DNA of 64,000 nt from an uncultured Alphaproteobacteria bacterium (lineage in GTDB: Bacteria; Pseudomonadota; Alphaproteobacteria; RF32; CAG-239), in NCBI GenBank assembly GCA_949493535.1, contig CASZWJ010000007.1, positions 1 through 64,000 of the forward strand, read 5' to 3'. Below are positions 1 through 51,353 of the stretch, in pieces. How positions within the stretch are numbered: the first letter of the stretch is position 1; each line of letters opens with the position of its first letter. The notes under the pieces were generated by a model. That model was given only the letters and a program-made list of their open reading frames with translations, was not told where the DNA came from and searched no databases. Both the position numbers and the translations under genes were made by a program.

Positions 1-67
1 AGGAGTGTACAATGAAGTACATGACTGAGTAATTTATTCGCTGTTTCTGTATTAGCTGCCTAATCCA
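1..67 (+). repeat. TGTAC-hairpin repeat, copy 1 (cut by window start)
   Basis: Bases 1-54 are identical to bases 116-169 of the next copy, a tandem period of 115 bp. The core TGTACAATGAAGTACA is intact at 6-21, but the left arm lies outside the window. After CTGTATTAG the sequence diverges from copy 2. Member of the family described at 69-190. Confidence 0.8.
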
Positions 68-68
68 T

Positions 69-190
69 AAATTCTTTTATATGAGGTAAATAATAAGAAA
101 CAAGAAAAATTACGAAGGAGTGTACAATGAAGTACATGACTGAGTAATTTATTCGCTGTTTCTGTATTAGTTACCCATAGAAAAGAATTT
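69..190 (+). repeat. TGTAC-hairpin repeat, copy 2
   Basis: Long imperfect hairpin. Outer arms are AAATTCTTTT (69-78) and AAAAGAATTT (181-190), a middle stem is TAATAAGAAAC (91-101) with GTTTCTGTATTA (158-169), an inner stem is AAATTAC (107-113) with GTAATTT (144-150), and the tip is TGTAC-AATGAA-GTACA. The conserved unpaired blocks TATATGAGG and CCATAG lie between outer and middle stems. The right arm runs into the stop codon of the minus-strand fliE gene. Function is unknown; an ERIC/REP-like palindromic element or a transcript-end structure are the main options. Confidence 0.85.
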
Positions 191-503
191 ATATTTGCAT
201 GTTAAGAATAGACTGATAAGCCTTTACCGCCGTGTCACGGAATGCAACGACCGTATCCAACGCCATTTCGGCATTTGATACAGCCAAAACAACGTCTTGA
301 ACATCTGCTTTTCCTTGGATTCCGGCAATCGTTACGGCTTCGCTCTTTTTTGAAAGCTCAACCGCTTTGTCAAAACTGCTTTTAACCATTTCGCCAAAAT
401 TTGAAGATGGAGCTGCTTTCGGCTGTTCGGCCGGAATTTTGGCCCCGATACGGCTTAAAGCTGTCTGATACGCATCCAATGCACTGGAAATATTGTTAAT
501 CAC
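189..503 (-). CDS. fliE: Flagellar hook-basal body protein FliE
   Basis: FliE joins the MS ring to the proximal rod of the flagellar basal body and is exported by the flagellar type III apparatus. The product has 104 residues, the usual family length, and ends with the typical amphipathic helix (VAFRDTAVKAYQSILNM). The GTG start is supported by AGGGAGA about 7 nt upstream. It is the last gene of flgB-flgC-fliE, 17 nt after flgC. Its stop codon falls in the right arm of hairpin repeat copy 2, which may therefore form the 3' end of this transcript. Confidence 0.93.
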   Translation of the reverse strand: MINNISSALDAYQTALSRIGAKIPAEQPKAAPSSNFGEMVKSSFDKAVELSKKSEAVTIAGIQGKADVQDVVLAVSNAEMALDTVVAFRDTAVKAYQSILNMQI

Positions 504-1472: not shown

Positions 1473-1793
1473 ATGTCTGAACAAAATAGTAGCAAAAAGA
1501 ACAAGAATAACAATGCAGAAATCGGCTTGTCCACAGATTATGCTGTTGCGCTCGGCTATGACATGGAAAAACAAAATGCCCCGAAAGTTCTTGCCAAAGG
1601 GCAAGGGCATGTTGCCGAGAAAATTATTCAAATTGCCATTGATCAGGGAATTGAAATCCGTCAAGACGCCGATTTGGTTCAAATATTGAAAGCAGTAGAC
1701 ATTGACAGTGAAATTCCGATTGAAGCTTTTTCAGCCGTAGCTGAAATCATTTCTTACATTTATCGCGAAAACGGCAAAATAATCGAAAAATAA
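1473..1793 (+). CDS. FlhB C-terminal-domain-like protein
   Basis: A 106-residue cytoplasmic protein matching the C-terminal export-switch domain of FlhB/YscU (AVALGYDMEKQNAPKVLAKG, then IAIDQGIEI and the closing AEIISYIYR). It lacks the transmembrane part and the NPTH autocleavage motif of full FlhB. Small solo FlhB-CTD proteins of this kind are known in several bacteria and are presumed to act in flagellar export. The N-terminal 20 residues are Lys/Asn-rich. It is divergent from flgB. No strong Shine-Dalgarno is visible, but this is the only good start. Confidence 0.85.
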   Translation: MSEQNSSKKNKNNNAEIGLSTDYAVALGYDMEKQNAPKVLAKGQGHVAEKIIQIAIDQGIEIRQDADLVQILKAVDIDSEIPIEAFSAVAEIISYIYRENGKIIEK

Positions 1794-1810
1794 TCTAAAA
1801 ACGCCCGACT

Positions 1811-1970
1811 AAACCGCTTGAGAAAACCTCTGAAACGGATAATAAAAAAAACTCGGATAGAGGAATTTATAAAGTGATTTAAAAGGCGAGGAAAATTTTA
1901 GTGTACATAGAAGTACATAAATTTTACGAGACCGCATTTAATCATTTTAGAAAACACCTGAACAGATAAT
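1811..1970 (+). repeat. TGTAC-hairpin repeat, copy 3 plus a partial 3' remnant
   Basis: First unit of a 125-bp tandem duplication (ACTCGGATAGAGG at 1851 and again at 1976), preceded by a fragment at 1811-1847 that matches the unit's 3' end. The core TGTACATAGAAGTACA is flanked by AAAATT and AATTTT. The stem AAAGTGATT (1871-1879) pairs with AATCATTTT (1940-1948). The outermost arms pair poorly compared with copy 4. Confidence 0.8.
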
Positions 1971-2096
1971 GAAAAACTCGGATAGAGGAATTTATAAAGC
2001 GATTTAAAAGGCGAGGAAAATTTTAGTGTACATAGAAGTACATGAATTTTACGAGACCGCATTTAATCGCTTTAGAAAACCTCTAGACGAGTTTTT
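1971..2096 (+). repeat. TGTAC-hairpin repeat, copy 4
   Basis: A nearly complete hairpin: AAAAACTCG (1972-1980) pairs with CGAGTTTTT (2088-2096), AGAGG with CCTCT, and AAAGCGATT (1996-2004) with AATCGCTTT (2065-2073), closed by the TGTACATAGAAGTACA tip. Compared with copy 3, one stem carries a compensatory change (T-A becomes C-G). The right arm covers the rsmB stop codon and its last three codons, so the left arm is an inverted near-copy of the rsmB 3' end. Confidence 0.85.
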
Positions 2097-3306
2097 CCAG
2101 AATGGCGATGAAAAAGCCGTCAGTCCCTGTCGTTAAAGGGGATAAACGCAAATACTTTTCAGAATGGTAGGGATACGGCGCCTCTAATTTTTGCTCCCAA
2201 AGCTCTTTTATATTTATCAAACGGACATTTGGATTGCTCTGCAAAAAAGCTCCTATGATTTCTTCGTTTTCTTCATTCAAAATCGAACAGGTAATATAAA
2301 CGATACGCCCGCCGATTTTCGTTTTTTCATAGGCTTTGCCCAACAGCTCGAACTGAATCTTATTAAGTTTGTCAACCATATTTTGATTCAGGCGGAATTT
2401 GGCATCAGGAGAGCGGCGCCAGGTTCCGGTTCCCGAACAAGGGGCGTCAACGACAAAGCGGTCAAAATCCTTATCAGAAGTTGCAACAAAATCAAGGAGT
2501 TCAATATTTTTGATACCCAAACGCTCCAAACGCGGTTTAATTGCCATTAAGCGTTTTTTTTCAATGTCATGAGCATAAATATGGCCTTTGTTTTGCAACA
2601 AATACCCCATTGCCAGACTTTTGCCGCCGGCTCCGCAACAATAATCTATAATCTTATGCTCCGGCTTGACGTCTGCCAAAACGGCCGCCAGTTGGGAGGC
2701 CTCGTCCTGAACCTCAATCTCTCCTTCTTTATAGGCAATGCAGTTGCCCAAAGGGATACGCTCATCACAGCGGATGCCAAGCGGCGAATAAGGCGTCGGA
2801 TAAACGCTGAAACCTTCGGCTTTGAGCTTGTCAATAACCGCTTCCCTGCTCTTGACATTAATGCGAAAATCCGCACTAGCCGGCACATTCAAAGATTTAA
2901 GCAAACGAACGTCCTGAATCTTTTTATACAGCCATTCCGGCGTTTCGGCTTCGACATGCGGCGGATAAACGTCTTCATTATCAATTTTAAGCCATTCTTT
3001 TTCTTCAACGCTTAAAGCCGCCGGAGAGTATTGGCCTCCGTCAAAAACGGCATCAATATCTTCCCCTTTGCTTTTCAGATAAGCCAACAAGATTTTTCGA
3101 TACTCTTTGGATTGCGCATCAAACTCAAGTTTCATCCGGTTGCGGATAATATGCCAAACCGTCTCGCTGATAAAACGCCGGTCTTTTGAACCGATATATT
3201 TGCGGGATTTGAGATAATCGTCAATAATTCCGTCCGCAGGCTTACTGTCTTTGAAAATTTCGCTGATAAGTTCTAAAACCGCCTGATAACGCGCACCGTT
3301 TTGCAT
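2083..3306 (-). CDS. rsmB: 16S rRNA m5C967 methyltransferase RsmB
   Basis: SAM-dependent rRNA (cytosine-C5) methyltransferase of the RsmB/NOL1/Sun family. The order is an N-terminal NusB-like RNA-binding region (first ~130 residues), a SAM-binding loop DYCCGAGGKS, motif IV with the catalytic PC (VVDAPCSGTGTW) and motif VI with the nucleophile cysteine (VYITCSILNEEN). The ATG at 3306 is chosen over the upstream in-frame start because AGGAGA lies 7 nt before it, giving 407 residues. Its 3' end is embedded in hairpin repeat copy 4. Confidence 0.9.
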   Translation of the reverse strand: MQNGARYQAVLELISEIFKDSKPADGIIDDYLKSRKYIGSKDRRFISETVWHIIRNRMKLEFDAQSKEYRKILLAYLKSKGEDIDAVFDGGQYSPAALSVEEKEWLKIDNEDVYPPHVEAETPEWLYKKIQDVRLLKSLNVPASADFRINVKSREAVIDKLKAEGFSVYPTPYSPLGIRCDERIPLGNCIAYKEGEIEVQDEASQLAAVLADVKPEHKIIDYCCGAGGKSLAMGYLLQNKGHIYAHDIEKKRLMAIKPRLERLGIKNIELLDFVATSDKDFDRFVVDAPCSGTGTWRRSPDAKFRLNQNMVDKLNKIQFELLGKAYEKTKIGGRIVYITCSILNEENEEIIGAFLQSNPNVRLINIKELWEQKLEAPYPYHSEKYLRLSPLTTGTDGFFIAILEKLV

Positions 3307-7020: not shown

Positions 7021-7059
7021 AATATTTTTTTGATTCTTTATGAAAGAATAAAAAATATT
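7021..7059. other. AT-rich hairpin between ccrM and the gppA pair
   Basis: AATATTTTTT-ATTCTTT pairs with AAAGAAT-AAAAATATT around a short ATG loop. On the minus strand it follows hairpin repeat copy 5 and could finish the ccrM transcript. A second small palindrome, GGTTATAA with TTATAACC, lies at 6977-7003. Confidence 0.45.
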
Positions 7060-7064
7060 AATCC

Positions 7065-7187
7065 AAATTTTATTATATGAGGCTAATAATAAGATTTCAG
7101 AGTGAAAGTACTGCAGTGTACATAAAAGTACATGAGGAAACTTTCAACTCGCAAAATCTGTATTAGTAGTCCATAGAATAAAATTTT

Positions 7188-7188
<1 letters not shown>
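7065..7188 (+). repeat. TGTAC-hairpin repeat, copy 5
   Basis: A complete element. Outer arms are AAATTTTATT with AATAAAATTT, the middle stem is TAATAAGATTT (7087-7097) with AAATCTGTATTA (7154-7165), the inner stem is TGAAAGT with ACTTTCA, and the tip is TGTACATAAAAGTACA. All three variable stems differ in sequence from copy 2 yet still pair. The right arm reaches the stop codon of the minus-strand ccrM gene. Confidence 0.88.
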
Positions 7189-8306
<1,118 letters not shown>

Positions 8307-28818: not shown

Positions 28819-29760
28819 ATGGCTGAATACAAAACAAAAGTACTAATTATCGGTTCCGGTCCGGCCGGCTATACGGCAGGCATTTACGCTGCACGTGCCG
28901 GCTTAAACCCGATTCTGGTTTCCGGCAGCCAAGTCGGCGGACAATTAACTATCACAACCGAAATTGAAAATTTTCCGGGTTTTCCCGAACCGATCGGCGG
29001 CCTTGATTTAATGCAGCGTATGCGCGAACAGGCACAAAACGTCGGCGTAACCATCGTTGACGATTTAATTACCGAAGTTGATTTTTCAAAAGCGCCTTAT
29101 CATTGCAACTCCGCAGGCAGCAATCTGTTCTGCGGCGACACTGTTATTATCGCAACCGGCGCTTCGGCTCGCTGGCTGGGACTAGACAGCGAAAAGAAAT
29201 TTTTAGGATTCGGCGTTTCCGGCTGCGCAACCTGCGACGGTTTTTTCTATCGCAACAGGGATGTTGCTGTTGTCGGCGGCGGCAACACGGCTGCTGACGA
29301 GGCTTTATACCTCACCAACTTTGCAAAATCCGTCACCCTGATTCACCGGAGAGATTCTCTTCGCGCCGATAAAGTGATGCAGCAGCGTTTGGCTGATAAT
29401 CAGAAAATTAAAATTGAATGGGACAGCGTTGTTGACGAAGTTGTCGGCACAGAAAATCCGCTGGGCGTTACGGGCGTTGTTCTGAAAAACGTTAAAACAG
29501 ACAGCAAAAAAGAACTGAAAGTCGACGGATTGTTTATAGCCATAGGCCACCACCCGAACACAGATTTGTTCAAAGGAATTTTAGAATTGGACAACGACGG
29601 CTATATCAAAACCAAAGACAACGGCTGCGAAACAAACATTCAGGGCATTTTTGCCGCCGGAGACGTTCAAAATCCGAACTACAGGCAGGCTGTGGTTGCA
29701 GCCGGTTCAGGCTGCATTGCTGCTCTGGAAGCCGAAAAATATTTAAGCCGCCAGAATTAA
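28819..29760 (+). CDS. trxB: Thioredoxin-disulfide reductase TrxB
   Basis: FAD/NADPH-dependent reductase of thioredoxin, 313 residues. FAD-binding IIGSGPAGYTAGIYAARA at the N-terminus, redox-active CATC near residue 138 (GCATCDGFFYR), NADPH-binding VVGGGNTAADEALYL, and the closing FAD motif GIFAAGDVQNPNYRQAVVAAG. AAGGAG precedes the ATG. Hairpin repeat copies 6-8 begin right after its stop. Confidence 0.97.
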   Translation: MAEYKTKVLIIGSGPAGYTAGIYAARAGLNPILVSGSQVGGQLTITTEIENFPGFPEPIGGLDLMQRMREQAQNVGVTIVDDLITEVDFSKAPYHCNSAGSNLFCGDTVIIATGASARWLGLDSEKKFLGFGVSGCATCDGFFYRNRDVAVVGGGNTAADEALYLTNFAKSVTLIHRRDSLRADKVMQQRLADNQKIKIEWDSVVDEVVGTENPLGVTGVVLKNVKTDSKKELKVDGLFIAIGHHPNTDLFKGILELDNDGYIKTKDNGCETNIQGIFAAGDVQNPNYRQAVVAAGSGCIAALEAEKYLSRQN

Positions 29761-29853
29761 AAGATAATAAGGTCTAAGGAAAATTGCGAGGGAGTGTACA
29801 AAGAAGTACATAACCGAACAATTTATCCGCAAAATCTGTATTAGTTTTCCATG
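29761..29853 (+). repeat. TGTAC-hairpin repeat, copy 6
   Basis: The tip TGTACAAAGAAGTACA and inner stem AAATTG/CAATTT are intact; 29774-29852 is identical to the corresponding part of copy 7, a 120-bp tandem period. The middle stem is weakened (AAGGTCT against AAATCT) and outer arms do not pair, so this copy looks decayed at its base. Directly follows the trxB stop codon. Confidence 0.85.
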
Positions 29854-29859
29854 CATCTC

Positions 29860-29987
29860 AATAAAGGGGGTTATATGAGAAAAATAATAAGATTTAAGGA
29901 AAATTGCGAGGGAGTGTACAAAGAAGTACATAACCGAACAATTTATCCGCAAAATCTGTATTAGTTTTCCATAGAACACCCTTTATT
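29860..29987 (+). repeat. TGTAC-hairpin repeat, copy 7
   Basis: A complete element: outer AATAAAGGG with CCCTTTATT, conserved blocks TTATATGAG and CCATAGAA, middle TAATAAGATTT with AAATCTGTATTA, inner AAATTG with CAATTT, tip TGTACAAAGAAGTACA. The outer arms are unrelated in sequence to those of copies 2 and 5 yet fully paired. Confidence 0.88.
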
Positions 29988-29994
29988 CTTCTAC

Positions 29995-30096
29995 GGTTTT
30001 GATAGATACCTTTGCTGCGACGGAATTTTTGAACGACATGTACAACCAGTTACATGAGTGAAAAAATCCCGAGCATGAAAGGTGTATAGCAAAACC
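29995..30096 (+). repeat. TGTAC-hairpin repeat, copy 8 (diverged)
   Basis: Same architecture with diverged sequence: GGTTTTG with CAAAACC, ATACCTTT with AAAGGTGTAT, ATTTTT with AAAAAT, and tip ATGTAC-aacca-GTTACAT. It ends 1 nt before the stop codon of the minus-strand permease gene. Confidence 0.7.
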
Positions 30097-49868: not shown

Positions 49869-51353
49869 ATGGCACAAAAACATATTATAACGGCTACCCC
49901 TGCTCCGGCTCCGGTAAAAACCGGCTTGGGCGTTTTTGCGCTTGCGGCAATCGTTGTCAGCTCCATGCTCGGCGGCGGCATTTACAGCCTGCCGCAAAAC
50001 ATGGCGGCCGGCGCCTCTGCCGGAGCCGTGCTCTTGGCATGGCTGATTACAGGCATCGGCATTTATTTCATCGCTAACACTTTTCGTATTTTGTCTGTTG
50101 CCAAACCTGATTTGACAACAGGTATTTACATGTACAGCCGCGAAGGCTTCGGCCCTTATGCAGGCTTTACGATCGGTTGGTCTTATTGGCTCTGCCAAGT
50201 TTGCGGCAATGTCGGCTATGCCGTCATCACCATGGATGCGCTCAATTATTTCTTCCCGCCTTATTTTGCGGGAGGAAACAATTTAGCGTCAATCATCGGC
50301 GGTTCAATCATTATTTGGGGCTTTAACTATCTGGTCTTAAAAGGCATACGCCAAGCCAGCATTGTCAACACCATCGGCACGGTTGTAAAAATCGTTCCGC
50401 TGATTTTGTTTATCATAATCATGGCCTTTGTTTTCAGCCCTGCAAAATTTGATTTTGACTTCTGGGGCGAATCAATTGCCGCGCAAACCAGCCTCGGCGG
50501 GTTAAGCACTCAAATTAAAAGCACGATGCTTGTCACGCTTTGGGCTTTCATCGGCATTGAAGGCGCCGTCGTCATGTCAAAACGCGCAAAATCTCCGGAT
50601 GCCGTCGGCAAAGCCACTTTCTTGGGCTTCGTCAGTTGTCTGGCAATTTATGTTCTTTTGTCACTGCTGCCCTTCGGCTATATGACACAGAAACAGTTGG
50701 CTGCCGTACCCAACCCGTCAACAGCCGGCATTCTTGAGCCTGTAGTCGGACGCTGGGGCGCTTGGATGATGAACATCGGCCTCTTGGTTTCCGTTTTGAC
50801 CAGCTGGCTGGCTTGGACAATGGTAACGGCTGAAATTCCGCAGGCCGCAGCACAAAACGGCACATTTCCTCAAGAATTTGCCAAAGAAAACAAATACGGT
50901 TCGCCGGCAGTTTCTTTGTGGATTACCAGTGCCATGATGCAGTTGTTTATTCTGTTGGTTTATTTTTCAAATAATGCTTGGAACACAATGCTCAGCATTA
51001 CCGGCGTCATGGTATTGCCCGCCTACTTTGCTTCCTGCGCATATTTATGGAAAATCTGCGCAGACGGCGAATATCCGGCAAATCTGCCCGTCAAACGTTC
51101 AGAAGCTTTGATAACCGGTGTCCTCGGCGCAATTTACGGTTTGTGGCTGATTTATGCCGCAGGACTGAAATATTTGCTTTTGGCAGATGTGATCGTTGCT
51201 TTGGGAATTCCCGTTTTCATCTGGGCTCGCAGACAATCTGCTCCGAATGAAAAAGCCTTTACCGGCAAAGAAAAAGTTATGGCCTGTATTTTAGGTTTGA
51301 TCGCCCTCTGGGCTGTCTATGCCTTCTCTCGCGGCTTAATAACTTTGAACTAA
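49869..51353 (+). CDS. aaxC: APC-family arginine/agmatine (or arginine/ornithine) antiporter, AaxC-like
   Basis: 494 residues, about 12 membrane helices. The first helix has the APC substrate motif [16 protein letters not shown]; helix 3 has [17 protein letters not shown]; helix 6 has [14 protein letters not shown], matching the ArcD/AaxC/AdiC group. Placed 94 nt after the decarboxylase, it should exchange external arginine for internal agmatine. The exact substrate pair (agmatine versus ornithine) rests on context. Confidence 0.88.

Follow-up and report, generated by a model that had tools for sequence, protein, structure and literature searches.

ERIC elements are described in the literature as having TA ends and a TA duplication, with 3′ placement relative to genes and an effect on mRNA; in Yersinia, ERIC is reported to alter the stability of co-transcribed mRNA, and an effect on mRNA that depends on the orientation of the element is reported as well (PMC2229807; PMC10969869). 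A 2024 review confines ERIC to the Enterobacteriaceae and Vibrionaceae. In the alphaproteobacterium Caulobacter, the CcrM-associated intergenic repeats (CIR) are palindromic and about 110 bp long (PMC2229807).

The hairpins described here occur in the 1.72-Mb genome (21 contigs; G000) of a gut alphaproteobacterium, of which the window, that is, the whole stretch of 64,000 nt that was analysed, forms positions 1–64000 of contig C7. The genome holds about 58 copies of a hairpin of approximately 125 nt (58 matches at E ≤ 1 to a covariance model built from 21 copies), in which covarying arms flank an invariant tip, AGTGTAC-N6-GTACATGA, found in exact form 26 times in the genome. In the 21-copy alignment, 92.7% of the cells are paired, a proportion that falls to 38% when the partners are slid by one column. 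Two-sided changes number 148, against 48 ± 6 in shuffles, and none of 500 shuffles reaches this value; where a pair has flipped between A-U and U-A the arms still match, and broken intermediates are few. Tandem arrays are common, their period being near 125 nt.

Like the CIR, these are palindromic intergenic repeats of an alphaproteobacterium, but the CIR consist of two hairpin arms with a GANTC loop, whereas the unit here is one long hairpin tipped by GTAC. Rickettsia palindromic elements (RPE) are also alphaproteobacterial palindromes, of about 100–150 bp, yet they lie in frame inside coding regions and the present hairpins lie at stop codons. REP/REPIN elements with RAYT are likewise dispersed palindromes outside genes, although REP units measure 20–40 bp and go with a Y1 transposase, in contrast to the unit of about 125 bp and the Y1-free genome seen here. 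The likely reading of the hairpins is that they are a non-autonomous palindromic element about 125 bp long, of an ERIC-like (IRU/RU-1) type, inserted at stop codons, with a role at gene 3′ ends and coupled to replication.

The copies in the window and the genes they adjoin are as follows.

2..36, + strand: partial copy at the contig edge (tip 5–21), tandem partner of the fliE copy
63..195 by the model, arms 67–192, + strand: hairpin at the fliE stop (model match, E 1e-24; fold)
189..191, − strand: fliE stop codon; the right arm overlaps it with its outer end (Pfam FliE)
1473..1793, + strand: FlhB-like C-terminal gene, convergent with rsmB (Pfam and sequence comparison)
1801..1850, + strand: putative remnant of one more copy, reduced to the right arm, adjoining the FlhB-like stop (read from the sequence)
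1855..1963, + strand: hairpin, inner member of the rsmB array (model match, E 4.5e-12)
1967..2100, + strand: hairpin at the rsmB stop, tip 2026–2042 (model match, E 4e-25; fold)
2083..2085, − strand: rsmB stop codon (TAG), lying within the right arm
7059..7191, + strand: hairpin at the stop (7188) of the ccrM-like methylase (model match; sister comparison)
29741..29862, + strand: hairpin, inner member, overlapping the end of a + strand reductase gene with its stop at 29760 (E 3e-14)
29857..29989, + strand: hairpin, inner member (model match, E 2e-26)
about 29994..30096, + strand: divergent hairpin, the same in kind, at the MacB/FtsX permease stop (30098), tip ACATGTACAACCAGTTACATGAG (symmetric hairpin scan)

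The right arm of the hairpin at the rsmB stop, CGAGTTTTT, reaches into the last rsmB codons. The divergent hairpin gave no match with model R1, and the canonical copies at 29741–29862 and 29857–29989 stand to its left. The preliminary description of this DNA had reported that the right arm meets the stop of a minus-strand gene at four loci (fliE, rsmB, the ccrM-like gene and the MacB-like permease gene), and this was confirmed at all four, with Pfam support for FliE, RsmB, an N4/N6 methylase with RAMA, MacB_PCD/FtsX and the convergent FlhB-like gene.

The position at stop codons is a rule of the whole genome. Among the 30 best-scoring copies of this genome, the right-hand gene is always on the opposite strand, and its stop lies within −13 to +7 nt of the arm end in 27, compared with 10% of random intergenic positions; the left-hand genes vary in both strand and distance. 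A stricter automatic rule places 27 of 35 copies at a stop (binomial p about 1e-20), and in this and related genomes together the figure is 93/117, with an offset peak at −2 to 0, many of the copies away from stops being inner members of tandem arrays. Outside this alphaproteobacterial family the preference is weaker (16/46 on the right vs. 6/46 mirrored on the left). The genome-wide survey against stop codons proposed in the preliminary description thus revealed a strong preference for 3′ ends rather than a lack of one. Within this single family, with its conserved tip and covarying arms, the strand bearing the tip is antisense to the gene at whose stop the hairpin sits.

The stop-codon habit is partly known already from described elements, and it is the confinement to a single strand and a single chromosome half that is the unexplained part. 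Strict replication-strand polarity holds in most genera of this alphaproteobacterial family: all 58 copies here have one orientation per contig, with the tip strand always the C-rich strand by GC skew, and the same polarity is seen in G011, G012, G014, G015 and G017. The origin was placed near 90 kb on contig C1 by the skew switch and the MnmG, MnmE, Rho and CoaE neighbourhood; copies start 10.7 kb to its right and go on, and the 90 kb on its left are free of them. The terminus is situated near 170–190 kb on C2, with copies only to its left. With the contigs besides C1 and C2 placed in halves by subtraction, the copy-bearing part totals 837 kb, or 49% of the genome. Wherever it was sampled, the other replichore is free of the element: 447 kb of it, taking in 40 kb of C2 just before the terminus, gave no match at E ≤ 10, and the bearing half gave 34 matches in 364 kb, some of them the two strands of one copy. 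Positions 50001–70000 of contig C4 read as N and lie outside the searched sequence. That the empty half bears a mirror family of hairpins was ruled out, as a symmetric hairpin scan found ordinary terminators only. Spread along the chromosome from neighbour to neighbour was also discarded, since neighbouring copies are no closer in sequence than distant ones (permutation p 0.65).

In G017, which belongs to another genus and is assembled in five contigs, all copies have the same polarity and lie on one side of the origin and terminus; most of this side is homologous to the copy-bearing half of the present genome, with one stretch mapping to a copy-free contig. In other genomes, too, most of the stretches that carry copies correspond to this half (within the genus 33 vs. 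3, with one mixed). The exception is one genus of the family, represented by G009 (64 copies, for example, L240), whose many copies point either way, on contigs where GC skew is weak. Single contigs of Rudaea and Legionella carry copies of both orientations, and the strand rule therefore belongs to this alphaproteobacterial family and not to ERIC-like elements generally, so that polarity as a property of all such elements was rejected. That an ERIC-like element inserts only at the stops of genes on the leading strand of one replichore, always in the same absolute orientation and throughout the family, is a tentative proposal that we hold to be somewhat doubtful; if true, insertion would be tied to one specific replication fork or to a unidirectional replication event, or the hairpins would mark one chromosome arm. 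We found no known mechanism for such a rule.

Isolated mismatches indicate which strand folds. In a strand-neutral arm alignment, the tip strand carries 107 G.A against 5 C.T mismatches and 36 G.T against 13 A.C; in 33 copies from other taxa, A.G outnumbers C.T by 64 to 3, and G.T (26) and A.C (25) are even. This bias marks the tip strand as the one under selection for folding, whether in the form of RNA or of single-stranded DNA. Both the G.U and the G.A bias point to the tip strand, and the hairpin extends over the 3′ end of the opposite gene, which would suit a structured antisense RNA that is transcribed from the tip strand and acts on the mRNA of the convergent gene. This explanation is unlikely, given that single-stranded DNA predicts the same bias, that the mixed strands of the left-hand genes offer no common promoter source and that a search of Rfam found no family matching the hairpin of about 125 nt.

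Comparison with sister species bears on how the hairpins arose. The rsmB site is empty in four species of the same genus, in which the rsmB stop abuts the end of the convergent flhB-like gene, the two stops overlapping as TTAA in G003, and this empty site is without a terminator. Here, the gap of about 290 bp between the two genes contains two full hairpins and the putative remnant, and both genes retain a TA-purine stop, which, as a single case, is consistent with insertion at TA and duplication of the TA. The length of the rsmB product is unchanged within one residue relative to the sisters, and where arms overlap the coding region (offset −13, e.g., rsmB), the last codons and the stop probably come from the element. 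Three further sites are filled here only, namely those at ccrM, at the gene ending in KVRVVSTIEYWLK and at the gene ending in RAYCQDLLNTMLV; their empty counterparts have an ordinary intrinsic terminator that is absent from the filled sites. At fliE and other genes, several species have the element at the same stop but with differing subfamilies. Given the empty sister sites, the hairpins were inserted at stops, recently in this lineage, which bears out the insertion suggested earlier. Insertion into the loop of existing terminators was ruled out, as the arms are unlike the terminators of the sisters.

The same sites bear on a role in transcript ending, which the preliminary description had expected. 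Three loci lack the terminator that their empty sisters have, in agreement with such a role; the empty rsmB site had none to replace, and the folding-selected strand is antisense to the gene, so that selection on this strand would sit badly with a terminator for the right-hand gene. It is very unlikely that the hairpins are simply the genes' own intrinsic terminators, diversified by selection and immobile. They do occupy terminator positions, the sisters having a terminator instead at three loci, and they are flanked by an A-tract and a T-tract, but the tip is conserved across phyla, the copies form tandem arrays of about 125-nt period, they keep to a single strand and a single chromosome half, and it is the antisense strand on which folding selection falls. 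Rather than the short GC-rich stem with a T-tract immediately after the stop by which Rho-independent terminators are recognised, the hairpins have a long stem with purine internal loops, often with the stop codon itself within the stem.

The outer arms at unrelated genes share the consensus AAAAnTCG..TA(A/G)..GG and its complement. Since one consensus is common to them, the arms are the element's own terminal repeats and not copies of each gene's end, and a rewriting of one arm from the other is therefore not needed. It had been stated that the left arm repeats the gene's 3′ end as an inverted near-copy; this is literally true and nevertheless misleading, given the arm consensus shared by unrelated genes. 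The proposed origin, in which template switching copies an ordinary gene end into the downstream flank and so makes the left arm (quasi-palindrome correction), is highly improbable. Pairing that survives A-U/U-A flips, with few intermediates in which it is broken, and a paired arm that overlaps the coding end at rsmB, would suit it; however, both arms follow the element consensus at unrelated genes, the same gene has different subfamilies in sister species, both arms change between orthologous copies (79 changes in the left arm and 66 in the right, in tighter windows), and the invariant tip is left unaccounted for. An apparent 3:1 ratio suggesting faster drift of the gene-distal arm was due to the flanks and shrank to these figures in the tighter windows. 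Rewriting may still help keep the arms matched. A third arm subfamily has the same tip and outer arms GGCTTTG...CAAAGCC (L110:15958, L086:12279 and L017). Two identical copies 51 kb apart (L110:6164–6297 and L111:17255–17388) lie at apparently duplicated EF-Tu genes (C-terminus RTVGAGVVSKILK).

Least credible of all is derivation from REP/RAYT or from an IS200/IS605-type single-strand transposon: hairpin DNA with replication-strand polarity is expected of such elements, but an IS200-type Y1 transposase (PF01797) was absent from this genome and from the copy-rich G009 and G011, and the unit length and two-arm anatomy are unlike REP.

An ERIC-like element inserted at stops could work as follows. 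Insertion would take place at the TA within a stop codon, with the element providing a new purine after the TA, so that the stop is regenerated and the gene unharmed; the outer arm would then lie at the gene end or a few codons inside it. As long as a purine comes next, insertion at the TA of a stop does no harm, and this would account for the position. TA is weakly enriched at the outer offsets (24–25% vs. 8% background). The hairpin with its flanking A/T tracts may replace a lost intrinsic terminator as the mRNA 3′ boundary or set mRNA stability, as is reported for ERIC in Yersinia. As a loosely held guess, replication-coupled insertion would meet its target as single-stranded DNA on one strand of one fork. 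TA targeting leaves the fixed gene orientation and the leading-strand and one-replichore restriction unexplained, and no candidate transposase for the element was identified, the Y1 type being absent from this genome.

The tip pattern occurs in at least 103 stretches of species genomes, most of which fold as the same hairpin; among the matches listed are Legionella, Thioalkalivibrio, Gallionellaceae, Deferribacteres, Vampirovibrio and Clostridia, and the tip also recurs in Rudaea. On contig C1 of G034 (Vampirovibrio), seven copies with the typical loop are spread over more than 1 Mb and share one orientation, although the GC skew there is weak. A model built on diverse taxa (R2) had almost no structure and was set aside. 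Against model R1, E. coli ERIC scores 15.8 bits (E 0.13), which is not significant alone. In matching orientation, 4 of 300 hairpin-preserving shuffles reach the best score of the ERIC likeness and 11 of 300 the mean, the best alignment being with a Clostridia copy and covering about two thirds of ERIC. Common ancestry with ERIC is probable on these comparisons, and unproven because the E. coli ERIC scores only at this level.

Compared with the ERIC/IRU/RU-1 elements, the hairpins share the form of a single imperfect palindrome (about 127 bp in ERIC, about 125 bp here), the tip plan of AG, 5 bp, loop, 5 bp and TGA, and the occurrence of many intergenic copies at gene 3′ ends (27/30 at stops here); two E. 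coli ERICs also end beside a gene of the opposite strand (ybhI, cusC), 1–6 nt from its stop. They differ in the tip stem (TGTAC/GTACA vs. CTTAC/GTAAG in ERIC), in their far more varied arms and tandem arrays, and in their strict confinement to one replication strand and one replichore, a confinement that was not found described in the ERIC literature. The present family also suggests that ERIC-like elements have a much greater age and a much wider distribution than their assignment to the Enterobacteriaceae and Vibrionaceae implies. We know of no mechanism established for the movement of ERIC since its discovery in 1990–91; new copies only at stops, on one replication strand and in one chromosome half would sharply narrow the mechanisms, in a way testable by genome comparison alone.
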